Shown: positions 10,087-64,000 of the stretch, one piece after another | How the letters are laid out: each line of letters starts with the position of its first letter | Position numbering within the stretch: position 1 is the stretch's first letter | The notes under the pieces: model-generated | The model's database searches: none | Seen by the model: the letters and a program-made list of their open reading frames with translations, nothing else | What the model was told of the DNA's origin: nothing | Program-made: the position numbers and the translations under genes | NCBI GenBank assembly: GCA_001724275.1 | Contig: MEDZ01000003.1 | Coordinates: forward strand, 281,230 to 345,229 | DNA length: 64,000 nt | Direction of reading: 5' to 3' | From: Gemmatimonadetes bacterium SCN 70-22 | Lineage (GTDB): Bacteria; Gemmatimonadota; Gemmatimonadetes; Gemmatimonadales; Gemmatimonadaceae

Positions 10087-13000
10087 ATGCAATCACGATT
10101 CGTTAGGCTCGCGCTCACGCTCGCGGCGTTCTTCGGAACGCTCGCGCCACGCGATGGGCTCGCCCAGGGACAGCAGGGGAGCGTCACGGGTCGCGTGACC
10201 GACGCGGCCTCGGGGGCGCCGATCGGCGCTGCGCAGGTGGCCATCGTCGGCACCACGCTCGGGACGCAGACGAACACGGAGGGGCAGTACACGATTCGCG
10301 GCGTCGCGCCGGGACGTGTCGAGGTGCGGGTGCTGCGCCTCGGGTTTGGCGAGCAGCGCCAGGCCGTGACCGTCGTCGCCGGCCAGGCTGCGACGCTCAA
10401 TTTCCAGATGGCCGCAGTGGCGATGACGCTCAACCCGGTCGTCACCACCGCGACGGGGCAGCAGCGCCGCGTGGAAGTGGGGAACGCCATCGCCCAGGTC
10501 GACGCCGCGCAGCTCGTCGAGACGCGTCCCGTGTCGGGGATGGCTGACCTCCTGACGTCGCGCGCGGCGGGGGTTCTCGTGACGCCCGGCACGCAGACCG
10601 GCGCCGGGACACGCATCCGCATCCGCGGCACCAGCTCGCTGTCGCTCACCAACAACCCGATTGTCGTGATCGACGGGATTCGCGTCGAGTCGGCCACCGG
10701 CTCGTCGTCGGTGAGCGTGGGCGGGACGACACCGTCGCGCTTGAACGACCTCAACCCCGAGGAGTTCGAGTCGATCGAGGTGGTACGCGGACCGTCGGCG
10801 GCAACGCTCTACGGGACGGACGCCGCCAACGGCGTCATCGTGATCACCACCAAGAAGGGGACGGCGGGGCGGCCGCAGTGGTCCTTCTATACGGAGCAGA
10901 CGGGGATCACCGACCGGAACGACTATCCCACCGCCTGGCACGGCTGGCGCACGGGCACCACCTCGGGGACGACGTCGTCGCCGTCGAACACGGTGCAGTG
11001 CTTCCTGTCGCAGGTGGTGGCCCGCACCTGCGTGCAGGACAGCGTGACCAGCTACAACCTGCATAACGACAAGGACGCCACGCCGTATGGCGTGGGCTAC
11101 CGGTCCCAGTACGGCGCGCAGCTCCGCGGCGGATCGGACGTGGCGCGCTACTTCCTGCACGGCGAGTGGGAGCGCGAAGACGGCGTGACGAAGGTTCCCG
11201 AGTTCGAGAAGCGCTGGCTCGCCCGTAACAACCGCTCGCTCAGCGAACGGCAGCAGAATCCCGGGCTCATGGGGCGCATCACGGGGCGTAGCAACGTGAA
11301 CATCTCGCTGCCGCGCAACGCCGAGATGCAGGTGAGCGCCGGCTACACGTCGCAGGACATCTACCTGCCCCGCAGCGACGACTCGGGCACCCCGGGGATC
11401 GCGGCCAACACCTTCGGCGGCCCGGGCTTCCGCTACAACCTCAACCCGCAGGGCGATACGCTCTTCGGGTGGCGTCAGTTCACTCCGCGCGACATCTACC
11501 AGACTGAGACGTCGCAAGGCGTGGAGCGCTTCATCGGATCGGTGAACGCCAACTGGCGCGCCTCCGACTGGCTCTCGGCGCGCGGCAACTTCGGGCTCGA
11601 CTACACCAACCGGCTCGACTCGCAGCTCTGCCGGTTCGACAACTGCACCAACACCGGGCAGGACCGGCTGGGCTTCAAGGTCGACAACCGGACCAACTTC
11701 TTCGTCTACACCGTCGATGCTGGCGCCACGGCCACCCGCCGGTTGAGCGAGACGCTCGAGTCCAAGACGACCGCCGGCTTCCAGTTCTACCGCAACGTCT
11801 TTAACCGCAACGGCGCGCGCGGCAGCCAGCTACCGCCGGGGGCCGTCACGGTGACGTCGGGGTCGGTCGCTTCGGCAGACGAGACGACCTCCGAGAGTCG
11901 CACGCTGGGCGCCTTCGTCGAGCAGGCGGTCTCGTATCGCGACAAGCTGTTCCTTACCGGCGCGGTGCGCTCGGATCGGAACAGCGCGTTCGGGGCCGAC
12001 TTCAAGACGGTCTTCTACCCCAAGCTTTCGGCCTCGTGGATCGTCTCCGAAGAAGGGTTCTTCCCCAAGACCGAGTGGATCGACCAGCTGCGGGTGCGCT
12101 CGGCGTATGGTGCCTCCGGCGTGCAGCCCGGGACGATTGACGCCGTGCAGTTCTTCTCCTCGTCGGTGTTCCGTGGCGAGAGCGGCGACCAGCCGACGCT
12201 CGTCTACTCATCGCTGGGCAACCGGCAGCTCAAGCCGGAGCGCTCCACGGAAGTGGAAGTCGGCCTGGACGGGACGTTCTTCAATTCGCGCCTGACGACG
12301 GAGCTGACCTACTACCGCAAGTCGTCGAAGGACGCGCTCATCTCGCGCATCCTCCCGCCGTCCATCGGGACCGGTTCCACCGCGCGCCTGGAGAACCTGG
12401 GCGAGGTACGGAACTCCGGCTTCGAAGCGCTCATCAACGCCCAGCTTGTGCGCCGCGACCGGTTCGGCTGGGACGTGTCGCTCAACGCATCGACCAACGA
12501 CAACGAGTTGGTCAGCCTGGGTGGCGTACCCCCAATCATCGGCACGACGCAACGCCAGATCGAAGGGTATCCGCTGTACGGCTGGTGGTCGCGTCGCCTG
12601 CTGGGGTATGCCGACAAGGATGGCGACGGCATCATCCGTTACAGCGCCGATCCCAACCTGAGCGAGATCACCGTCTCGGACGCGCCCGAGTTCCACGGCT
12701 ATCCGCTGCCGCGCTACGAGCTCGCCCTCACCAACAGCTTCGAGCTCTTCAAGCGCGCACTGCGCCTGTCCGCGATGGTCGACTACAAGGGCGGTCACCT
12801 CGTCTACAACAACTCCGAGCGCATTCGCTGTGCGTCGCGCTTCAACTGCGAAGGGCTCATCAACCCGAAGGCGCCACTGTTCGAGCAGGCGCGCACGGTG
12901 ATGGTGCGCGAGCATCCGAGCCGGTCGGTGGCCGGATTCTTCGAGGAGGGCGACTTCATCCGCCTCCGCGAGCTGTCGGCGAACTGGAACATTCCGCGTG

Positions 13001-13191
13001 ACTGGACGGCGCGACTGCTGCGTGGCCGTTCGGCCTCGGTGACGGCGTCGGCGCGAAACGTCGGGATGCTCTGGACCAATTACCTCGGCGTGGATCCGGA
13101 GGCCTTCGGCACCACCGGCGACGCCCCGTCGTCGTTCCAGGCGTTCGGCCCACCGACGTACTTCGCCTTCCGTTTCAACCTTGCCTACTAG
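10087..13191 (+). CDS. SusC/RagA-family TonB-dependent outer-membrane receptor
   Basis: The 1034-residue outer-membrane protein starts with a signal peptide ending near GLAQ. A carboxypeptidase-regulatory-like beta domain follows (SVTGRVTDAASGAPIGAAQV, about 30-110). The TonB plug, about 120-240, contains LLTSRAAGVLVTPGTQTG, IRIRGTSSL and RGPSAATLYGTDAANGVIVITTKKG. A large beta-barrel ends in the typical aromatic C-terminus (FRFNLAY). The ATG at 10087 is chosen because the signal peptide begins there, although an in-frame ATG lies 54 bp upstream. With the SusD partner 13 bp downstream it would form a nutrient-importing complex for oligosaccharides or peptides. The transported substrate cannot be read from the sequence. 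Confidence 0.95.
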   Translation: MQSRFVRLALTLAAFFGTLAPRDGLAQGQQGSVTGRVTDAASGAPIGAAQVAIVGTTLGTQTNTEGQYTIRGVAPGRVEVRVLRLGFGEQRQAVTVVAGQAATLNFQMAAVAMTLNPVVTTATGQQRRVEVGNAIAQVDAAQLVETRPVSGMADLLTSRAAGVLVTPGTQTGAGTRIRIRGTSSLSLTNNPIVVIDGIRVESATGSSSVSVGGTTPSRLNDLNPEEFESIEVVRGPSAATLYGTDAANGVIVITTKKGTAGRPQWSFYTEQTGITDRNDYPTAWHGWRTGTTSGTTSSPSNTVQCFLSQVVARTCVQDSVTSYNLHNDKDATPYGVGYRSQYGAQLRGGSDVARYFLHGEWEREDGVTKVPEFEKRWLARNNRSLSERQQNPGLMGRITGRSNVNISLPRNAEMQVSAGYTSQDIYLPRSDDSGTPGIAANTFGGPGFRYNLNPQGDTLFGWRQFTPRDIYQTETSQGVERFIGSVNANWRASDWLSARGNFGLDYTNRLDSQLCRFDNCTNTGQDRLGFKVDNRTNFFVYTVDAGATATRRLSETLESKTTAGFQFYRNVFNRNGARGSQLPPGAVTVTSGSVASADETTSESRTLGAFVEQAVSYRDKLFLTGAVRSDRNSAFGADFKTVFYPKLSASWIVSEEGFFPKTEWIDQLRVRSAYGASGVQPGTIDAVQFFSSSVFRGESGDQPTLVYSSLGNRQLKPERSTEVEVGLDGTFFNSRLTTELTYYRKSSKDALISRILPPSIGTGSTARLENLGEVRNSGFEALINAQLVRRDRFGWDVSLNASTNDNELVSLGGVPPIIGTTQRQIEGYPLYGWWSRRLLGYADKDGDGIIRYSADPNLSEITVSDAPEFHGYPLPRYELALTNSFELFKRALRLSAMVDYKGGHLVYNNSERIRCASRFNCEGLINPKAPLFEQARTVMVREHPSRSVAGFFEEGDFIRLRELSANWNIPRDWTARLLRGRSASVTASARNVGMLWTNYLGVDPEAFGTTGDAPSSFQAFGPPTYFAFRFNLAY

Positions 13192-13204
13192 GGTGATCGC
13201 CATC

Positions 13205-14602
13205 ATGCGAGCATATATGAACTTTGTTCCCGCGCATGCGCCGCTCCGTGCCGTGGTGCGGCGCGCAGCGGGCGCCGTCGGCGTTTCCGTCCTGGCGCTC
13301 ACGTCTGCGTGCTCGACGGCGACCGAGATCCTCGAGGTGCAGGATCCGGACATCGTGAACCCGAGCGACGTGGCATCCGTTGCCGGCGCCAACGCCGTGC
13401 GCCTCGGCGCCCTCGGGCGCCTCAATTCGGCGACGAGCGGCGAAGAATCGCTGTTCCTTCTCGGCGGACTGTTCACCGACGAGTGGATCAACGGCGACTC
13501 GTTCATCGCGAGGCAGGAGATCGACCAGCGCACCATCACGCGGGAGAACACGTTCCTCACCGCGGCCAATCGCGCGCTGCACCGCGCGCGACTCTCGGCG
13601 GAACAGGCGGTGGAGCTCCTCGAGCAGCACAATCCCTCCGCCCCCGGGTGGCAGGTCGCCGAGATGTACTTCGTGCAGGGTTACGCCATCAACCTCATGG
13701 CCGAGCACTACTGCAGCGGCATCATCTTCAGTTCCGTAGTGAACGGCGTGGAGCAATATGGCTCGCCGATCACCAGCGCGGCGGCGTTCGACAAGGCGTT
13801 GACGCTGGTGGATCAGGGGATCACGCTCGTCACGGGGAATACCGCCGACGATACGCGGGTGCGCAATGCGCTGCGTGTTCTCAAGGGACGCATCCTCGTG
13901 AACCTCAATCGTCACGCCGAGGCGGCGACGGCGGTGGCGGGCGTGCCGAACACGTTCGCGTACACCATGCTTCATGCGGCCACGGCCACGAGCAACCAGA
14001 TCTGGGCCTTCAACAGCCTGTCGCGCCGCTACAGCATGAGCGTGGCCGAGGGCATCAACGGGATGAACTTCGGGTCGGCGAACGACCCGCGCGTCCCGGC
14101 CTGCCAGGGGGGCGATGCGACGTGCCGCGCTCTCGGCGTGACGCTGGCGACGCGCGACGACCTGCTGCGCCCGATCATCATCGCGACGAACTGGTCGGCG
14201 CGTGAAAGCCCGGTGGCGATCACCAACGGGATCGAGGCGCGCATGATCGAGGCCGAGGCGCAGCTCAAGGCCGGGAATGCAGCGGCCGCGCTGGCCACGC
14301 TCAACGCGGCGCGCGCCACGGTCACGGGGCTCGCTCCGCTCACCGACGCTGGAACCCCCGCGGCCCGGCTGGACCAGCTGTTCCGCGAGCGCGCGTTCTG
14401 GTTCTTCGGGCGCGGGTATCGCACGGGCGACATGCGCCGCCTGATCCGGCAGTACGGGCGGGCGGCCAACACCGTCTTCCCCACCGGGGCCTGGCACAAG
14501 GGCGGCAACTACGGGACCGACGTGAACTTCCCGGTTCCGCAGGCCGAGGACAACAACCCGAACGTTCCCGCGGGCGGGGCGTGCATCGACCGAAACGCCT
14601 GA
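13205..14602 (+). CDS. RagB/SusD-family nutrient-binding lipoprotein
   Basis: The 465-residue lipoprotein has its lipobox in LALTSACS. The body is a TPR-like SusD fold: an N-terminal IVNPSDVASVAGANAVRLGA segment and helical pairs such as LHRARLSAEQAVELLEQHNP. The C-terminal region shows the usual IEARMIEAEAQLKAGN and LFRERAFWFFGRGYRTGD motifs of SusD proteins, which face the binding pocket of the SusC partner. The ATG at 13205 follows an AGGGTGAT ribosome binding site, and a second ATG at 13217 is possible. It is the surface-exposed capture component of the transporter encoded just upstream. A strong inverted repeat lies downstream at 14633-14664. Confidence 0.93.
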   Translation: MRAYMNFVPAHAPLRAVVRRAAGAVGVSVLALTSACSTATEILEVQDPDIVNPSDVASVAGANAVRLGALGRLNSATSGEESLFLLGGLFTDEWINGDSFIARQEIDQRTITRENTFLTAANRALHRARLSAEQAVELLEQHNPSAPGWQVAEMYFVQGYAINLMAEHYCSGIIFSSVVNGVEQYGSPITSAAAFDKALTLVDQGITLVTGNTADDTRVRNALRVLKGRILVNLNRHAEAATAVAGVPNTFAYTMLHAATATSNQIWAFNSLSRRYSMSVAEGINGMNFGSANDPRVPACQGGDATCRALGVTLATRDDLLRPIIIATNWSARESPVAITNGIEARMIEAEAQLKAGNAAAALATLNAARATVTGLAPLTDAGTPAARLDQLFRERAFWFFGRGYRTGDMRRLIRQYGRAANTVFPTGAWHKGGNYGTDVNFPVPQAEDNNPNVPAGGACIDRNA

Positions 14603-55375: not shown

Positions 55376-58300
55376 CTAGTGCCGGTCGTCTTCCTCGAAG
55401 AACGAGGAGACGACCCCGCTCCCGCTGGCGCGCTCGACGCGGAGCGTCTGCTTGAGCGTCTTCCCGTTCAGGGTGACGGAGACCAGGTAGTCGCCCGGCT
55501 GGACGATGGGGGCCTGACCGCGAGCGGCGCCGGGGAGCTGGAAGCCGCCGCCACCGAAGCCGCCGCCGCGCGGCATGATGAGCTGGACGATCTGGAAGGC
55601 GAGGGTGGGATCGGTGATCCCGGCCGCCGCCGCGGCACCGGCCGCACCGCGCCCGCCGCCGCCACCACCGCGCTGTCCGCCGGCCTGTTCACCCGGCCGC
55701 GGGTTCCAGACGGTGGACTGCCCCATCCCGCCCCCCATGAACATCTGGGCCATCTGCTGCATGTCGCCGCCCATCAGCATGCGGCGGAAGCGCCCGAGCG
55801 CGGCGGTGTCGAGTCCGGCCTTCCCGAGCGAGTCGAAGACGAAGTCGGCGCGCCGGACGGCGAGGATCGAGTCGCGCTTCCCCGCTGGGGAGAGCGGCGG
55901 CTGGGGCGCGGCCTTGCCGCGGAAGTCCCAGACCACCTTGTGGACGCCCGCGCCCGAGGGGCCGTTGAGCGTGCGGATGGTGTCGCCGCTGACGTCCTGG
56001 ATCACGACGCGCACCGGGCCGTTGCCGCGCGTCGTCAGGCGGTACGAGATCTCGGCGCCGTACTGAGGGCTCGGCGTCTGGAACCACTGGTGTCCCACCG
56101 ATTGTCCCTCGAACGCCATGTCGCCGAACTGGAAGGCGGTCTTCGGCTTGAAGAGGTACGACTCGGCGGCCGCCACCTGCGGCGTCATCTGCTGGAGCGC
56201 GGCGATGTCCACCACCCAGATCGCGCGCCCGTGCGTGGCGGCGATCAGCTCCTTGTCGCGGGGGTGGATCTTGAGGTCGTTGACCGGGACCGTCGGGAGC
56301 CCCGACATGAAGCGCTGCCAGCTCTGCCCGCGGTTGAGCGACACGTACGCGCCGACGTCGGTTCCCACGAAGAGGAGGTCCGGGTTGACCGGGTCCTGCC
56401 TGATGACGTGGACGAAGTCGGGGCCGCCGCTGGGGAGGGTGCCGGCAATGGACCGGAACGACTTCCCGAAGTCGGCCGACTGGTAGACGTAGGGCGCGTA
56501 GTCGCCGACGCGATGGTTGTCGAAGGTGACGAAGACCGTCATCGAGTCGTGCGGCGACGGTTCGATCTCGCTCACGTACGCGTTAGGCGGGAGCCCGGGG
56601 AAGTGCTTCGACAGCTCTTCCCACGTCCCGCCGTCGTTCTTCGTGACCCAGACGCGCCCGTCGTCGGTTCCGGCAAAGAGGATTCCCGGGCGGATCGGCG
56701 ACTCGGCCAGCGACACGATGGTCCCGTACGTCTCGGCGCCGGTGGCGTCGACCGTGATGCCGCCGGTGGTGCGCGTCGAGATCCGGATCTTCTCGGGGTC
56801 GGCGTAGGTGAGGTCGGCCGAGATGGGGTACATCTCCTCGCCGCGCCTGGTGCTCTTGAGCACGCGGTTGGCGCCGAAGTACAGCACCTGCGGGTTGTGG
56901 GCGGAGATGATGTACGGGGTGTTCCAGTTCCAGCGCAGGTCGAAGGCGACCGAGTCGGTCTTCTGCTGCGCGCGGAAGGCGTCGATGCGCTTCTTCTGGT
57001 CCCTCGAGATCGGCGCCGTGGTGTCGGGGCGCTCGGTGAGGATGGAGTCTTCCCACTGCTGGTACCGGGGGCGCCAGTTGGGCTTCACCAGCGAGGTGCG
57101 CTCGCTGGTGGCGAAGTCGAAGCGCGAGATGTTCCCGCCCTGCGACTCGGCGTAGACGGTGTTGGGGTCGGTGGGGTCCTGCTGCGTGACGAAGCCGTCG
57201 CCCCCGGCCACCGTGGCCCACATCGCGTTGGTGATCGCCCCCTGGCGGCGGCGCGACGGCCCGCACCACGAACCGTTGTCCTGGAGGCCGGTGCAGACGC
57301 GGTAGGGGACCGACATGTCGAAGGAGACGTTGTACGCCTGCGAGACCGGGAGCGTCATCGGCACGTCGTAGCTCCCGCCCTGGTCGTACGAGATCGCGAT
57401 CCCGCCGTCGTTGCCGACGATCATGCGCTCTGGATCGTTGGGGTCGATCCACATGGCGTGGTGATCCACGTGGATGCCGACGGTGGCGTTCTTCGCGGTC
57501 TTGCCGCCGTCATCCGAGACCTTGACCGGGGTGGACGACCAGTAGACGCGGTCGGGGTTCTTCGGGTGGACGCGCACCTGCGAGTAGTAGAAGGGGCGCA
57601 CGTTCTCGCTGCTGGTGCGCACCCAGGTCACGCCGCCGTCGTCGGAGCGATAGAGCCCGCTCGGCTTCTCCTGCGGCTTGGCCCCCTTGGCCGGCTTCGG
57701 GTTGGGGGCCGTGTCCGCCTCGACCATGGTGTACATCACCCTGGGGTTCGAGGGCGCGATGGCGATCGAGATGCGGCCCTTCGTCGTCCCGGGGAAGCCG
57801 CCCCCCTTCACCTCGGTCCAGCTCTTCCCGGCGTCGGTCGACTTCCAGAGCGCCGAGCCCGGGCCGCCGGACTGGAGGAAGTACGGGCCGCGCACGCGCT
57901 CGTAGCTCGCCGCCCATACGATGTCGGGGTTCGACGGATCGAGCTGCACGTCGACGAAGCCGGCCTTGTCGGAGATGAACTTGACCAGCTCCCAGGTGGT
58001 GCCGCCGTCGATGGTCTTGTAGAGCCCGCGCTCCTTGTTGGCGTTCCACGGCGCACCTAACGCGGCGACGTAGACGATGTTGGGGTTGGTGGGGTGCACC
58101 TGGATGCGCCCGATGGCCTGGGTCTTCTCCAGCCCCATGAGCTTCCAGGTGATCCCGCCGTCGGTGGACTTGTAGACGCCGCCCCCCGGGGAGATCGAGT
58201 TGCGCGAGTTGGGCTCGCCGCTCCCGGCCCACACCTGCATGGTGTCGCTGGGGGCAATGGCGAGCATCCCCATGGAGATGACGCGCTCGTGGTCGAAGAC

Positions 58301-58588
58301 GGGGCGCCAGGTGGTCCCGTTGTTGGTCGACTTCCAGATCCCGCCCGCCGCCGCGGCGACGAAGAGCGTCTTGGAGGGGGAGGGGATGCCGGCGACGTCG
58401 GAGATGCGCCCCATCGTGTTGGCGGGGCCGATCAGCCGCCAGCGGAAGGCGGAGAGGGTGGCCGAGTCGACCTCGAAGGGGGCGCCTTGCGCGGGGAGCA
58501 CGGCGGGGGGGCCGGCCACGGCCAGCCATCCGGCCGCGAGGCCGATGGCCCTGCCGAGAGTCGCGCGGCGAAGCGGGGATCGAAGCAT
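55376..58588 (-). CDS. Secreted VPS10/sortilin-like BNR-repeat protein, giant
   Basis: The 1070-residue protein has a signal peptide near GLAAGWLAVAGPPAVLPAQ. The body is a series of BNR-type beta-propeller repeats, each with a KSTDGGxTW core: WKSTNNGTTWRPV, YKSTDGGITWKLM, YKTIDGGTTWELV, WKSTDAGKSWTEV, YRSDDGGVTWVRT and WVTKNDGGTWEEL. Sequence like HDSMTVFVTFDNHRVG and FVGTDVGAYVSLNRG fills the spacing. It ends in a beta domain (YLVSVTLNGKTLKQTLRVERA). A glycine-rich segment with GGQRGGGGGGRGAAGAAAAAG lies near residue 980. Such exported proteins in Gemmatimonadota resemble sortilin/VPS10 folds and may bind ligands or act as glycosyl hydrolases; activity is unclear. Confidence 0.9.
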   Translation of the reverse strand: MLRSPLRRATLGRAIGLAAGWLAVAGPPAVLPAQGAPFEVDSATLSAFRWRLIGPANTMGRISDVAGIPSPSKTLFVAAAAGGIWKSTNNGTTWRPVFDHERVISMGMLAIAPSDTMQVWAGSGEPNSRNSISPGGGVYKSTDGGITWKLMGLEKTQAIGRIQVHPTNPNIVYVAALGAPWNANKERGLYKTIDGGTTWELVKFISDKAGFVDVQLDPSNPDIVWAASYERVRGPYFLQSGGPGSALWKSTDAGKSWTEVKGGGFPGTTKGRISIAIAPSNPRVMYTMVEADTAPNPKPAKGAKPQEKPSGLYRSDDGGVTWVRTSSENVRPFYYSQVRVHPKNPDRVYWSSTPVKVSDDGGKTAKNATVGIHVDHHAMWIDPNDPERMIVGNDGGIAISYDQGGSYDVPMTLPVSQAYNVSFDMSVPYRVCTGLQDNGSWCGPSRRRQGAITNAMWATVAGGDGFVTQQDPTDPNTVYAESQGGNISRFDFATSERTSLVKPNWRPRYQQWEDSILTERPDTTAPISRDQKKRIDAFRAQQKTDSVAFDLRWNWNTPYIISAHNPQVLYFGANRVLKSTRRGEEMYPISADLTYADPEKIRISTRTTGGITVDATGAETYGTIVSLAESPIRPGILFAGTDDGRVWVTKNDGGTWEELSKHFPGLPPNAYVSEIEPSPHDSMTVFVTFDNHRVGDYAPYVYQSADFGKSFRSIAGTLPSGGPDFVHVIRQDPVNPDLLFVGTDVGAYVSLNRGQSWQRFMSGLPTVPVNDLKIHPRDKELIAATHGRAIWVVDIAALQQMTPQVAAAESYLFKPKTAFQFGDMAFEGQSVGHQWFQTPSPQYGAEISYRLTTRGNGPVRVVIQDVSGDTIRTLNGPSGAGVHKVVWDFRGKAAPQPPLSPAGKRDSILAVRRADFVFDSLGKAGLDTAALGRFRRMLMGGDMQQMAQMFMGGGMGQSTVWNPRPGEQAGGQRGGGGGGRGAAGAAAAAGITDPTLAFQIVQLIMPRGGGFGGGGFQLPGAARGQAPIVQPGDYLVSVTLNGKTLKQTLRVERASGSGVVSSFFEEDDRH

Positions 58589-58677
58589 GGATCGTCCGGG
58601 ATTGCAGTGGAGTGCACGGGCACCGCTCCAGGGGCGGCGCGCGGGGAACATGTCCGCAGAGCGGGGCGAACGGAATG

Positions 58678-58707
58678 CGCCCTGCGCCGATTTAACGGCG
58701 CAGGGCG
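58678..58707 (-). terminator. 12-bp hairpin downstream of the cupredoxin-like gene
   Basis: CCCTGCGCCG (58680-58689) pairs with CGGCGCAGGG (58696-58705) perfectly, extended by two more pairs on either side, around an ATTTAA loop. It lies 28 bp beyond the leftward stop of the cupredoxin-like gene. Confidence 0.7.
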
Positions 58708-58734
58708 TCGGAAGCGTTGAAGGGGCGCCGCCGC

Positions 58735-59625
58735 TCACGGGACCACGCGCACCAGCCTGACCATGCCGTGCTGCGAGTGCAGCTGCCTGGAGAGCGGGTT
58801 GTACGTGGTGCACAGGAGGGCGTAGTCGCCCGGCATCAGGTCGACGGTGACGTTCACGGCGCGTCCGCGCTCCAGGTTGGTCGTCCCGCCCACGGCTTCG
58901 TAGGGCGACGCCCCCACCGGCTGCTCGGCGAACCGGACGGCCTGCTCGAGCGTGCGCCCCGGGAGGAGCCTAACGATGGAGACGTGGTGCTCGAACTGTC
59001 CCTTGTTCTCCACGCGGATGGTGCGGCGCCCCGCATGGAGCGGCCCCTCGAGCGTGAATCCCCACTCGTTCATGAGGAGCGCCACCTCGGTGACCGGGAG
59101 CATCTTCGGCGCGCCGCCATCGGCAGGCCGGATCACCGACAGCTCCTGGACTTCCGTGAGGACGAGCGGTCCCCCGCGCGTGGGCGGCACCGGGAGTTGC
59201 GCCATGACGTACCGCCCCGGCTCGAGGACCATCGACACCGACGACACGCCGCCAGGGACGCTCGATTCGGGTCCGCCCATGCGGTTGATCCACGGGACGT
59301 TCCAGTCGCCCGAGCGCAGGTAGTCGGCGATGGCCGCCACGCGGTCGAGGCGGCCGACCCTGAGGATGGCGATGTGCTGCGTGGTGCCCGAGCGGTTGAA
59401 GAGACGGATGTTCACCAACCCGGCCTCCACCTGCGACGGTGCGTCGAACCCCTTGTCGCGCGCCACGATGACGAGCTCGGCGCCCGGGATCCCGCCGATG
59501 CGTTGGGCGGCGGGGCGAGGCTGCTGGCCCTGCGCGCCCTTGCCTGTGGCCTGGGCGCCGAGCGGGGCGACCAGTGCGGGGGTGAGGGCGAAGGTGAGGA
59601 GTGCGGCGGCGAAGCGGATGCGCAT
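58735..59625 (-). CDS. Exported cupredoxin-like protein
   Basis: The 296-residue secreted protein has a signal peptide (RFAAALLTFALTPALVAPLGAQ). The first half is a beta-rich domain (VIVARDKGFDAPSQVEAGLVNIRLFNRSGTTQHI in pieces). The second ends with a candidate type-1 copper site: His213 or His214 in QFEHHVSIVRL, then Cys272, His283 and Met288 (with an extra His286) in the loop that starts DYALLCTTYN. The C-x10-H-x4-M spacing resembles nitrite-reductase-type and other long-loop blue copper proteins. It could be an electron carrier or copper protein in the periplasm. The family name is not certain to me. Confidence 0.75.
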   Translation of the reverse strand: MRIRFAAALLTFALTPALVAPLGAQATGKGAQGQQPRPAAQRIGGIPGAELVIVARDKGFDAPSQVEAGLVNIRLFNRSGTTQHIAILRVGRLDRVAAIADYLRSGDWNVPWINRMGGPESSVPGGVSSVSMVLEPGRYVMAQLPVPPTRGGPLVLTEVQELSVIRPADGGAPKMLPVTEVALLMNEWGFTLEGPLHAGRRTIRVENKGQFEHHVSIVRLLPGRTLEQAVRFAEQPVGASPYEAVGGTTNLERGRAVNVTVDLMPGDYALLCTTYNPLSRQLHSQHGMVRLVRVVP

Positions 59626-59744: not shown

Positions 59745-62700
59745 TCAGGTGGAGGCGGGCTCCTCGAGACGCTCGGCCAGGGGGACGAACGCGAGGGTAC
59801 GGGCGCGCTCGGCGGCGAAGCGCCGCGTGGCGTCGATGGCGGGGAGGCCGGCGCGCTCGAGCACGCCGGCGCACTCGGCGACCAGCCACGCCCCGGCGTA
59901 CGGATCGACGGCGTCGAGGCGGTGCCGGGCGCGGGAGAAGAGGTCGAACGCGGCCCCGGTATGGCCGGAGGCCAGCGCCATCTGCAGCGCCAGCGCGTCG
60001 ACCATCTCGCGCCCGGGGAACCACCACTCCGGCACAGCGCTGGTCATGAGCTCGGTGGCGCGCTCCCAGCGCTTCCAGGTGGAGGGGGATTCGGGGCCAC
60101 CGTTGGTGAGGGCAGCGCCGGCCAGCGAGGCCAGCTCCAACCACGCCACCTCCAGCGTTCGCGCCCTGGATGTTGCAGCGTTGTAGAGCGCATGGGCGCG
60201 CGAACGCTCGCCCATGTCACGCGCGACGTTGGCGGCGACGAAGGTCGTGCGCAGCGACTCGGGGACGTCGCCGATGGCGGTGAAGATGCGCTCGGCGTCG
60301 CCCAGCCACTGTGCCGCCTCGCCGAAGGTGCCCTGGCGCGAGCGCAGCTCGCCCAGCGCCCGCGAGACGCCGGCGGCCAGCGGGGCGGCGTGAGCGCTGC
60401 GGGCCGCCTCGAGCGCATCGCCCAGCGCCTCCTCGGCTTCTCCCACGCGCCCCCTTCGCAGCTGCAATTCGCCGAGCGCCAGCCGGGCGCGGGCCATGGC
60501 AAGGCGGTCTCCCGAGGCCGTGGCGTGGGCCACCGCGTCGTGGGCCAGCGAGATCGCCTCGTCGGGGGCCGCGCCGTCACGGGCGAGCGCCAGGAGCCGG
60601 CCTGCCGCACCCCGGTGGGCGAGGGTGGCCCGGTCGCCGAGCGTCTCCAGCGCCTTGCGGGCGAGCGTCGCCGCCAGCGGCCAGTCGGCGACCGCCGTGG
60701 CCACCGCCGACGCCGTCAGCTGCACGTCGGCCCGGAGGGCGACGTCGCCTTCCGGGGCGGCCGCGAGGATGGCGCGCAGCTCCTCGAGGGTGCGAAGCGG
60801 CGGCTTGCCGCTGTGCATCCGGACGCACTCGCGCAGGCGTCGCACCTCGAGCGCCGCGTGCGCGTCGCCGCTCCCCTCGATCCACTCCAGCGCCAGGTCG
60901 CACCAGGCTTCCGCCGGGGCGTACCGCCCCGCGCCGACGGCCACTGTCGCCAGGCGCACCCTGAGCGTCGCCAGGTCGCGCGCCGAGGGGGCGTACCGCT
61001 GCGCCACCTGCAACGCCTCGAGCGCGAGGTCGTGCGCGAAGGCAGCGCCCATGCGGTCGGCGGCCGCAACGGCGTACCGATAGGCCTCGGCGTCCAGCCC
61101 GGCGGCGTGATAGTGGCCGGCGATCTCGTCCACCGACGATGGCGTGCGCAGCTCGAGAAGGCGCGCCGCCACCTCGTGCATGCGCTGGCGCCGCCGCTCG
61201 GGGACCTCGCGCGTGATGGCCTCGCCGAGGAGGGCGTGGGTGAAGGTGAAGGCGCCGTCGCGCCCCGCCACCGGCGTGACGATCCCCGCCGCCACTCCCT
61301 CGTCCAGGGCGGCGGTGACCTGTGCCTCGGGGGCGTTGGCCGTGGCCACCAGCAGCTCCACGGCAAACGGGGCCCCGAGGACCGCGGCCGTGGCGAGAAT
61401 CCCCCGGGCGGGGGGCGACAGGCGTTGCAGCCGGCGCTCGAGGATGAAGGCGACGCCCGGGGGGAGCGCCTCGAGCGAGGTGGGGCGCCACTCCCAACGC
61501 GTCCCGCCGTACCAGATCCCCCCCGATTCGGCGAGGGCGCGCAGGACGTGCACGACGTGCAGCGGGATCCCCTCGGTGTAGGCGTGCAGCACGCGCGGGA
61601 ATTCGTCGCCCGGGTCGGCATCGTGAAAGACGACCTGGACCCATCGGCGCAGCTCGTCGAGGGTGAAACGCTGCAGCGCGAGCTGCTCGGCGCGCGGATG
61701 CTGCATGAGGCGCCGGCGCCAGTCGGCGGCGGCGCGTGCCTCGTCGGGGCGAAGGGTCAGGACGACGAAGAGCTGCTCGCCATCCAGCGCGCCGAGCAGG
61801 GCGTCGAGCACCGTCCAGGTGGCGGTGTCGGCCCACTGCACGTCCTCGAAGACGAGGACGAGGAGGCGCTCGCGCGCGGCCCGACGCACGGCGCGCACGA
61901 TCTCCTCGTGCAGGAGCGAGGGGGTAAGGGCCCACTCGTCGCCGTCGCCCGACGGCGGAATTCCCGGGACGAGTTGCGGAAGGGCGCGCCACTGGTTCTG
62001 GGCCAGGAGGCCAGTCGCGTGGAGGCGCGCGAGGACGTCGGCCCAAGGCGCGTACGCCGAGGCCTGGTCGCCCTCCAGGCATTGCGCCGTCACGAGGGTT
62101 CCGGCGCGCAGCCGGATCTCGGGTTCCAGGCGCCTGACGAGTGCGGACTTCCCGATCCCTTCCTCGCCGGAGATCGACACGAGGCGCGCGTCGCCGCGGC
62201 TGGCCAGGTCGAGCAACCCGACCATGGTGCGCAGCTCTTCTTCGCGTCCCACGAAGGTGTCGAACGCCAGGCGGGCGCGCGCCGCGCCGGCGTCTCCGTG
62301 CTCCGCCACGACCACGCGATCGCGCCCGTCGCGCTTGGCGCGGTGGAGCGCGCGGTCGGCCGCCGCCAGGAGCGCCTCGACGGAGTCGCCGTCCTGCGGC
62401 GCGCCGACGACCGCGATCGAGACGGAGATGGCGATCTGCTGGTCTGGTGCGTCGCGACGCGCGCAGCGCAGCTGGGCGCACGCCTCGCGCAGGCGGTGGG
62501 CCACCTCGAGCGCGACGTCGGGGGGGGTGGCGGGGAGGAGGACGAGGAATTCGTCGCTCCCGCGTCGTCCCACGAGGTCGCCGGTCCGGAGGCCGCGCTG
62601 CAGCACCTTGGCGACGGCCCAGAGGAGGTCGTCGCCCTGGAGCCGCCCGTAGGCGGCGTTCACGCGCTCGAAGTGGTCGATGTCGAGGAGGAGGACGGCG

Positions 62701-64000
62701 ACCGACTGGTCGGCGCCGCGGCGCCTGGCCAGGGCGTGGGCGGCGCGCTGCATCCACGACGAGCGGTCGGCGACCGAGGTGAGCTCGTCGTCGACGATGG
62801 CCGGCTCGCGCGACTCGGCGCGGACGGGGAGTGCCGCCGCCGAAGTGACGCCGGGGATGGCGACCCCCTCGCGGACCACCTCCTCGAAGACGCGGAAGAC
62901 CGCCGGATCGAACTGTCGCCCGACGTCGCGGCGCATGACGTCGATGGCCTCGTCGTGGCCGAGCGCCGACTTGAAGGCGCGGCGCGAGACGAGGGCGTCG
63001 TAGACGTCGGCGACGGTGAAGATGCGGGCGGCGAGGGGGATCTCCTCGCCCGCGAGCCCGTGCGGGTATCCCGAGCCGTCCCAGCATTCGTGGTGCGACT
63101 CGACGATGGGGCGCACCTCCCACGGGAAGTCGACGTCGCGGAGCATTTCCGCCCCGGCCACCGGGTGGCGCTTGACGATGGTCCACTCCTCCGGCGTGAG
63201 GCGTCCCGCCTTGTTGAGGATGGCGGCCGGGATGCCCAGCTTCCCGATGTCGTGCAGGAAGGCGCCGACCCGGTACCAAACGAGCGATTGCCGGTCGGCT
63301 CCCATGCGCCGTGCGATCTCGCAGGTGAGGTCGGCGACCCTATCGAGGTGGCCGGCGGTGGCGTGGTCCTTTCCCTCGATGCGTTGCGCCCAGCGCCGGA
63401 TGACGTTCAGGAAGCCGTCGTCGAAGCGGCGCAGCCGCCGGGTCGTCTCGCCGTCCACGTCGCGGGCGCGCAGCTGGGTGGCGGCGCGGTACGCGCGGTT
63501 GAGCGCCTGCAGCGCCTCGGCGTGCCGGTCGTCGCGGGCGAGGAGGTCGGCGTGCTCGCGGGCGGCCTCGGCGACGAGGAGGAGGTCGCCGGCGTCCTCG
63601 GCGAGGCGCTCCCCCTGCTCCAGGAGACGCGCCGCGCGATCGCGGTCGCCGAGCTCCCGGGCCACGGCGCCGTTCAGCACGAGGGCGCGGGCCACCAGCG
63701 ACGCGTCGTCGAGCTTGCGCGCCAGGTCGATGGCGCGATCGGCGCTGGCGTGGGCGCGCTCGACGTTCTCGCGATCCAGCGCCATCCCGGCGCGGGCCAG
63801 CTCGATCGTGGCCAGCAGGCGCTCGTCATGTAGCTGCGTGGCGGCCGTGGCCGCCTCGGCGAATGCCTGCTCGGCCGCATTCCACCGCTTGAGCTCCGCG
63901 TAGAGCGTGGCGAGGCGGGCCAGGGCGGCCGCCTCACCCCGGCTGTCACCGGCGGCATGGAGGTCGGCGCGCGCCTCCTCGTGCAGGGCAATGGCCTGCG
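59745..64000 (-). CDS. Giant TPR - HD-GYP - GGDEF - NTPase - TPR signalling protein, 5' end outside the window
   Basis: The frame is open to the right edge, with TPR-like helices before an internal Met at 63785, so only the last ~1418 residues are visible. Numbering from that Met: TPRs to about 110; HD-GYP phosphodiesterase at about 130-310 with HDIGKLGIP (His178-Asp179), ESHHECWDGSGYP and a KHPVAGAEML-like motif; GGDEF cyclase at about 350-490 with the variant GSDEF (409-413) and an inhibitory-site RTGD five residues upstream (400-403); an AAA-like NTPase from about 515 with Walker A GEEGIGKS (540-547) and Walker B LVFEDVQWAD; then winged-helix/TPR segments to 1346. It would couple c-di-GMP turnover to an ATP-driven switch. 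I see no DNA-binding domain. Confidence 0.92.
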   Translation of the reverse strand, partial: QAIALHEEARADLHAAGDSRGEAAALARLATLYAELKRWNAAEQAFAEAATAATQLHDERLLATIELARAGMALDRENVERAHASADRAIDLARKLDDASLVARALVLNGAVARELGDRDRAARLLEQGERLAEDAGDLLLVAEAAREHADLLARDDRHAEALQALNRAYRAATQLRARDVDGETTRRLRRFDDGFLNVIRRWAQRIEGKDHATAGHLDRVADLTCEIARRMGADRQSLVWYRVGAFLHDIGKLGIPAAILNKAGRLTPEEWTIVKRHPVAGAEMLRDVDFPWEVRPIVESHHECWDGSGYPHGLAGEEIPLAARIFTVADVYDALVSRRAFKSALGHDEAIDVMRRDVGRQFDPAVFRVFEEVVREGVAIPGVTSAAALPVRAESREPAIVDDELTSVADRSSWMQRAAHALARRRGADQSVAVLLLDIDHFERVNAAYGRLQGDDLLWAVAKVLQRGLRTGDLVGRRGSDEFLVLLPATPPDVALEVAHRLREACAQLRCARRDAPDQQIAISVSIAVVGAPQDGDSVEALLAAADRALHRAKRDGRDRVVVAEHGDAGAARARLAFDTFVGREEELRTMVGLLDLASRGDARLVSISGEEGIGKSALVRRLEPEIRLRAGTLVTAQCLEGDQASAYAPWADVLARLHATGLLAQNQWRALPQLVPGIPPSGDGDEWALTPSLLHEEIVRAVRRAARERLLVLVFEDVQWADTATWTVLDALLGALDGEQLFVVLTLRPDEARAAADWRRRLMQHPRAEQLALQRFTLDELRRWVQVVFHDADPGDEFPRVLHAYTEGIPLHVVHVLRALAESGGIWYGGTRWEWRPTSLEALPPGVAFILERRLQRLSPPARGILATAAVLGAPFAVELLVATANAPEAQVTAALDEGVAAGIVTPVAGRDGAFTFTHALLGEAITREVPERRRQRMHEVAARLLELRTPSSVDEIAGHYHAAGLDAEAYRYAVAAADRMGAAFAHDLALEALQVAQRYAPSARDLATLRVRLATVAVGAGRYAPAEAWCDLALEWIEGSGDAHAALEVRRLRECVRMHSGKPPLRTLEELRAILAAAPEGDVALRADVQLTASAVATAVADWPLAATLARKALETLGDRATLAHRGAAGRLLALARDGAAPDEAISLAHDAVAHATASGDRLAMARARLALGELQLRRGRVGEAEEALGDALEAARSAHAAPLAAGVSRALGELRSRQGTFGEAAQWLGDAERIFTAIGDVPESLRTTFVAANVARDMGERSRAHALYNAATSRARTLEVAWLELASLAGAALTNGGPESPSTWKRWERATELMTSAVPEWWFPGREMVDALALQMALASGHTGAAFDLFSRARHRLDAVDPYAGAWLVAECAGVLERAGLPAIDATRRFAAERARTLAFVPLAERLEEPAST

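Follow-up and report, generated by a model that had tools for sequence, protein, structure and literature searches.

Signalling ATPases of the STAND type that carry a TPR sensor, such as MalT, PH0952, AfsR, and the LuxR-type LAL regulators, have in common an FVGR sequence, Walker A and Walker B motifs, a GxP motif, a winged-helix histidine, and a C-terminal TPR superhelix. STAND proteins are ADP-bound closed monomers at rest, and the binding of an inducer to the sensor leads to ATP exchange and multimerisation (PMC6468293, PMC4381067). In the window, i.e., the whole stretch of 64,000 nucleotides of Gemmatimonadetes bacterium SCN 70-22 analysed in this work (G000:C3:281230-345229), a minus-strand gene encodes a giant protein with an ATPase of this kind, the predicted output of which differs from that of the regulators listed above in being a pair of cyclic diguanylate (c-di-GMP) enzymes and not a DNA-binding domain. 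We propose that the product is a soluble STAND-type signalling ATPase with a c-di-GMP output, that is, a ligand-/nucleotide-gated oligomerising switch that controls synthesis and has the counteracting phosphodiesterase on the same chain, and we rate this reading at roughly an even chance; the activities, the oligomerisation, and the direction of control are those that we infer from the families named here.

Other described proteins share a part of this layout. The class III cyclase-AAA_16-TPR proteins, including the TOMM kinase/cyclase fusion, likewise have a cyclase-fold domain N-terminal of a STAND core and TPRs; the protein considered here has a GGDEF domain in that position, together with an HD-GYP domain and a second, N-terminal TPR array, and it has no kinase domain. 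The bifunctional GGDEF-EAL enzymes also join c-di-GMP synthesis and breakdown on one chain, whereas here HD-GYP stands for EAL and the control would be of the STAND type; in five alphaproteobacterial orders, the combination of GGDEF or EAL with HD-GYP was never observed (PMC9756655). A protein of Clostridium thermocellum (1826 residues) made up of a Ser/Thr kinase, TPRs, and GGDEF is comparable in being a very large TPR protein whose output is GGDEF, but its kinase stands instead of the HD-GYP and its GGDEF is C-terminal (PMC1262709). In the vWA-MoxR (VMAP) systems, GGDEF occasionally replaces the cyclase for cyclic nucleoside monophosphates in NTPase-dependent signalling (PMC7159879); their ATPase, however, belongs to a different family and their setting is that of conflict systems, for which no PADLOC defence model gave a match here at E 1e-5. 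Lastly, the TPR-HD-GYP proteins of Gemmatimonadota (about 550-650 residues) correspond to the N-terminal half of the protein, without GGDEF and without ATPase. All the parts are known, and the combination appears to be new: no description of a TPR/HD-GYP/GGDEF/STAND/TPR architecture was found in the literature searched, which missed most subscription journals.

The open reading frame (ORF) spans positions 59745-63785 if counted from an internal ATG and is open to the window end. The adjoining stretch L005, from which positions above 64000 are extrapolated, completes the gene and provides the N-terminus that the original prediction, made from the window only, had lacked: the complete protein consists of 1565 residues; translation probably starts at the ATG L005:7672, which corresponds to the extrapolated position 64442, and the stop lies at 59745. 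An alternative in-frame GTG upstream would give 1632 residues; in the blastp comparison with homologues, homology starts near residue 1 of the 1565-residue form. Full-length residue numbers, used throughout, equal those of the original prediction plus 219. The order of the domains, from the N- to the C-terminus, is TPR, HD-GYP, GGDEF, STAND ATPase (AAA_16 nucleotide-binding domain and winged helix), and a long MalT-like TPR array. Pfam matches were obtained for HD_5 (residues 356-515, E 9.5e-36), GGDEF (552-709, E 3.2e-35), and AAA_16 (729-894, E 9.5e-25), as well as for TPR_12 in six stretches and, weakly, for TPR_MalT, the TPRs flanking the enzymatic modules on both sides. The features of the gene are the following:

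59745-64000, minus strand: the whole gene, in-window part, which runs on to the likely ATG
63438-64000, minus strand: the portion of the N-terminal TPR array (residues 1-335) that lies in the window, residues about 149-335 (Pfam TPR_12/TPR_16)
62883-63410, minus strand: HD-GYP domain, residues 345-520 (HD_5; PDB 5z7c, V-cGAP3, and 4mcw)
63249-63254, minus strand: His397-Asp398 (invariant in the alignment A1, described below)
63063-63077, minus strand: GSGYP, residues 456-460 (motif reading and alignment)
62307-62798, minus strand: GGDEF domain, residues 549-712 (Pfam; PDB GGDEF structures)
62577-62588, minus strand: putative inhibitory site (I-site) RTGD, residues 619-622 (motif reading and alignment)
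62547-62561, minus strand: GSDEF, residues 628-632 (motif reading and alignment)
61728-62267, minus strand: STAND nucleotide-binding domain, residues 726-905 (AAA_16; the model matches PH0952, 6mfv)
62145-62168, minus strand: Walker A GEEGIGKS, residues 759-766 (motif reading and alignment)
61842-61862, minus strand: Walker B LVLVFED, residues 861-867 (motif reading and alignment)
61113-61727, minus strand: STAND helical and winged-helix domains, residues 906-1110 (GxP, winged-helix His, secondary structure of the model)
61563-61571, minus strand: GxP motif, GIP at residues 958-960 (alignment)
61236-61238, minus strand: winged-helix His1069, counterpart of PH0952 His382 (alignment)
59748-61112, minus strand: MalT-like TPR array at the C-terminus (residues 1111-1565), which presumably senses the inducer (Pfam; model; MalT domain III)

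The predicted architecture TPR/HD-GYP/GGDEF/NTPase/TPR is borne out by Pfam and by its collinear recurrence in dozens of genomes. The motifs had also been read correctly, including the RxxD placed upstream of GSDEF, since RTGD, five residues, and then GSDEF follow one another.

The NTPase announced by the original prediction is present with both Walker motifs, and it can be assigned more precisely. The N-terminal hhGR motif of STAND ATPases occurs as FVGREEE together with Walker A and Walker B, and the GxP motif and the winged-helix histidine have their counterparts in PH0952 (PMC6468293). Walker A is kept in all the full-length homologues (consensus GxxGxGK[ST]) and the winged-helix histidine in those inspected. 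The structure predicted for residues 720-1565 had a predicted local distance difference test score (pLDDT) of 88.2, mostly above 90 in the TPR array, and a predicted template modelling score (pTM) of 0.66; its best Foldseek match was the TPR-STAND protein PH0952 (6mfv, E 2.1e-13, prob 1.00), followed by Avs3, and the other matches included CED-4, Sr35, Roq1, the human apoptosome, and MalT (8bob). On the basis of this model, the ATPase is of the STAND fold. The superposition on 6mfv over the whole length gave template modelling (TM) scores of only 0.32/0.40 and a root-mean-square deviation (rmsd) of 29, so the relative positions of the domains differ. The C-terminal TPRs superpose on MalT domain III (1hz4) with Z 24.6 and rmsd 3.8 Å over 349 aligned residues, and Rap peptide-binding proteins match as well; these matches should not be read as a hint of the ligand, since TPR superhelices match widely. 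A role as a defence system was rejected, as PADLOC was negative at E 1e-5; Avs3 is among the fold matches, but other STAND proteins are found there as well.

The assignment to STAND (GxP, winged-helix His) also bears on the manner of control: the original prediction had suggested that the protein could be gated by nucleotide hydrolysis, and gating by ADP/ATP exchange and oligomerisation now appears likelier. The suggestion that GGDEF takes the place of a class III cyclase is, on the other hand, upheld, since the ATPase part matches the TOMM kinase/cyclase model and several plasmid relatives of this part are annotated as adenylate/guanylate cyclase proteins (in the plasmid search, 0 records covered 80% of the query). 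No Pfam match to a class III nucleotide cyclase domain was obtained in the protein, GGDEF being there instead; the protein may thus work like the class III cyclase-STAND-TPR proteins, but it is not one of them.

In principle, we can depict the following scenario. At rest, the protein would have ADP bound, and the winged helix together with the TPR sensor at the C-terminus would keep the nucleotide-binding core shut; the docking of an inducer (a small molecule or a peptide) on the TPR superhelix would then promote the exchange to ATP and multimerisation via the STAND core. As GGDEF catalysis requires two domains to dimerise (PMC7825114), this assembly would pair the GGDEF domains and start the synthesis of c-di-GMP from GTP, which the RxxD I-site would curb as the product builds up. 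The HD-GYP domain, lying just upstream with its own N-terminal TPR array, would break c-di-GMP down in the absence of synthesis or upon engagement of these TPRs, and a single chain could in this way both raise and lower c-di-GMP locally. A bolder version, which we consider possible but distinctly doubtful, is that of an NLR-like oligomerising hub, in which STAND assembly driven by a ligand brings GGDEF domains together to make c-di-GMP (induced proximity) and either shuts off the HD-GYP domain or is counteracted by it, giving an ATP-dependent two-way switch on one chain across Gemmatimonadaceae. The usual controllers of c-di-GMP enzymes are PAS, GAF, receiver, or membrane sensors, whereas the controller here would apparently be an ADP/ATP-dependent oligomerisation switch like that of STAND proteins, which are related to animal and plant immune receptors. 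If true, and because of the pairing that GGDEF catalysis requires, the GGDEF domain would be turned on physically and directly by STAND assembly, with the opposing enzyme on the same chain; this, in turn, would make cultured Gemmatimonadaceae a clean system for asking how a bidirectional second-messenger enzyme avoids futile cycling.

The sequences of the enzymatic modules were compared in an alignment of 17 rows (A1), and 22 full-length forms were inspected overall. The HD and HHExxDGxGYP signatures of HD-GYP phosphodiesterases are present together with the further metal ligands of the family; H365, H397, D398, H426, H450, H451, and D479 align with the ligands of V-cGAP3 and PmGH and are invariant in A1. 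The diguanylate cyclase residues D587, N595, D604, D630, and E631 (metal/catalytic acids, guanine-binding Asn and Asp) are also present and correspond to invariant A1 columns. The catalytic D and E are retained in GSDEF and, as far as can be judged from the residues, speak against a loss of its activity, which had been named as a finding that would contradict the prediction. GSDEF occurs in the present protein (P0001), L009, L019, and L069, AGDEF or GGDEF in most of the other full-length forms (GGDEF in L021), and AGDEL in L066. The RxxD I-site is found in 13 out of 17 aligned forms.

The same residues allow us to consider whether the messenger might be a related cyclic dinucleotide, such as 3'3'-cyclic GMP-AMP (cGAMP), and not c-di-GMP. 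The solved structure closest to the HD-GYP domain is indeed that of the cGAMP phosphodiesterase V-cGAP3 (5z7c, E 2.4e-44), and no PilZ match was obtained in the genome of SCN 70-22 in spite of 12 GGDEF matches (along with 7 HD_5 and 6 EAL matches; by position, GGDEF and HD_5 share one frame only at this gene). The next matches of the HD-GYP domain, however, are c-di-GMP enzymes, and c-di-GMP receptors other than PilZ exist. Moreover, the base-specificity position is occupied by Asp604 in all 17 rows, and not by Ser/Thr as in Hypr GGDEF; the cGAMP-making Hypr GGDEFs have Ser at this position and canonical diguanylate cyclases have Asp (PMC6456294). A cGAMP synthase is disfavoured by this residue, and a messenger other than c-di-GMP is, in our opinion, very improbable.

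The full-length form is not peculiar to one genome. The same collinear fusion was retrieved from 42 out of 179 Gemmatimonadaceae species genomes, belonging to 11 out of 35 genera, in nearly all cases over the full core, and some of the 42 genomes hold two or three copies. The search with the HD-GYP/GGDEF/ATPase core gave full-length matches elsewhere in the family at about 40-86% identity, and in blastp the complete protein aligned end-to-end with 16 homologues of about 1580-1720 residues (one cut by a contig end), plus 5 further full-length ones. In a sample of 346 genomes of the phylum (only two candidate places scored per genome), no complete match was found in the other families, which yielded the TPR-HD-GYP half or GGDEF-ATPase proteins; outside Gemmatimonadota, one species-wide scan retrieved no full-length match, but such a scan reaches close relatives only, so that a confinement to Gemmatimonadota does not follow from it. 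Neighbouring tandem copies of the full-length gene, about 6 kb apart, were observed in G263:C12, G261:C165, G347:C27, and G350:C6, and L066 (1251-7583, G258) has an ORF of 2111 residues in which the conserved protein begins at about residue 512.

All 22 full-length proteins keep the catalytic set, that is, HD, HHE..GYP (preceded by W[D/N]G), DxD.....N, GD, DE[F/L], and the Walker A consensus, with small exceptions (AGDEL in L066, WNG for WDG in L069, and the Pro of GYP missing in L015 at an alignment gap). The dN/dS values (NG86, three pairs) were lowest for HD-GYP (0.07-0.21), GGDEF being at 0.15-0.32 and the STAND core at 0.14-0.35, and the N-terminal TPRs were the fastest-evolving part (0.33-0.47); according to these values, the tested pairs are under purifying selection across the enzymatic modules. 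Given this selection and the collinear recurrence in dozens of genomes, the ORF and its architecture are not due to chance, as judged from the sequences. The original prediction had stated that domains occurring as separate genes in relatives would point to a chimera. An assembly chimera, or a fortuitous fusion in one genome, might be invoked because the gene crosses the window end and because its parts do occur as separate genes in relatives; however, the fusion is kept in the 42 genomes, selection acts throughout, and one branch of the ATPase tree (support 97/95) parts the full-length form from the shorter ones, so that we regard this explanation as ruled out, with practically no probability left to it.

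A number of data weigh against the proposed c-di-GMP switch. The model of the 801 residues comprising HD-GYP, GGDEF, and ATPase had a pTM of 0.47, too low to place the enzyme domains on the switch. The third-metal Glu of PmGH, four residues before the GH histidine, is Ala here and mostly Tyr in the homologues; because of this replacement, a bimetal rather than a trinuclear-type site is expected from the sequence, although the Glu is not required for membership in the HD-GYP family, which its absence does not exclude. The GSDEF of the closest relatives departs from the textbook [A/S/G]G[D/E]EF, and such a site was termed "imperfect" in a protein whose mutation gave a c-di-GMP phenotype (PMC4395868). 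The I-site is missing in 4 of the 17 aligned homologues; L016 has GNA for GxP, and L020 and L069 have a poor Walker B region, to which L069 adds a deviation at WDG. Furthermore, hybrid GGDEF-EAL proteins usually have one dominant activity (PMC12943098).

This last point leads to an alternative that we deem unlikely, yet the most serious one, namely, that the protein is a net phosphodiesterase with HD-GYP as its sole working output, the GGDEF domain binding GTP as an allosteric regulator and the STAND and TPR parts tuning the activity. A GTP-binding GGDEF regulator has been described for several GGDEF-EAL hybrids, and HD-GYP is the best conserved module, with 57-90% identity compared to 36-85% for GGDEF and the lowest dN/dS. 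In addition, L049 and L056, which are TPR-HD-GYP-GGDEF proteins without ATPase, keep HD-GYP and have degenerate GGDEF motifs, their HD-GYP falling among the full-length forms (97/97). Nevertheless, in the full-length forms, the metal/catalytic acids of GGDEF are invariant in A1 and kept in all 22 proteins, most of which keep the I-site as well, and this exceeds what a GTP-binding regulator would need.

The partial types present in relatives are TPR-HD-GYP, GGDEF-STAND-TPR, and TPR-HD-GYP-GGDEF. The GGDEF-STAND-TPR paralogues, without the HD-GYP half, are about 1030 residues long and are those separated from the full-length form in the ATPase tree; the HD-GYP tree was mostly unresolved and gives no date for the fusion. 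GGDEF is degenerate in 8 out of 11 partial paralogues checked: besides the two proteins mentioned above, it is decayed in L018, L050, L051, L052, L053, and L059, five of which have also lost the Walker A lysine, while L054, L058, and L070 (GGDEF-STAND-TPR) look intact. These data, which come from small numbers of related sequences and are suggestive only, would indicate that the modules are mostly preserved jointly and degenerate once they are apart. Most of the ORFs of the six decayed paralogues (about 1000 residues) are still open, making them candidate enzymatically dead regulators.

Such proteins might suggest that the full-length form, too, is a signalling scaffold, with nucleotide domains serving mainly as ligand sensors, TPR arrays recruiting partners, and enzyme turnover being incidental. 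About half of the protein consists of its two long TPR arrays, and several partial paralogues persist without a catalytic GGDEF and without Walker A; full-length forms, unlike the decayed paralogues, keep their catalytic residues across 36-80% identity, and we hold a mere scaffold to be quite improbable. GGDEF takes the place of a cyclase on a STAND core elsewhere as well: proteins of about 1450 residues that combine GGDEF and STAND with HEAT repeats, and in which GGDEF and Walker A are intact, were observed in families of the phylum other than that of the window (L064, 1828-6186, the domains of which were read with Pfam; L065, 1966-6318).

Lastly, the neighbourhood of the gene was inspected, and the following features were recognised:

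58735-59625, minus strand: 296-residue protein, predicted to be secreted from an N-terminus resembling a signal peptide and without a match in Pfam, at 119 bases downstream of the gene
55376-58813, minus strand: 1145-residue protein with Sortilin/VPS10 and BNR repeats, a homologue of which also follows the gene in L020
51194-52564, plus strand: ORF with a Ser/Thr protein kinase domain (HRDIKPEN, DFGIGKA) and a C-terminal hydrophobic segment, recognised from the sequence

A function based on an operon was considered and rejected: conservation of the neighbours does not go beyond close relatives and the arrangement is not the same in L021, L073, and L074, where no homologue of the 296-residue protein was found near the full-length gene, so that the neighbours give no general clue. 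In L020, the homologue of the 296-residue protein (12594-13520) adjoins the full-length gene and the Sortilin/VPS10-like gene is also downstream, and in L071 a homologue lies nearby (12640-13665) together with a homologue of the upstream TonB-dependent receptor gene.

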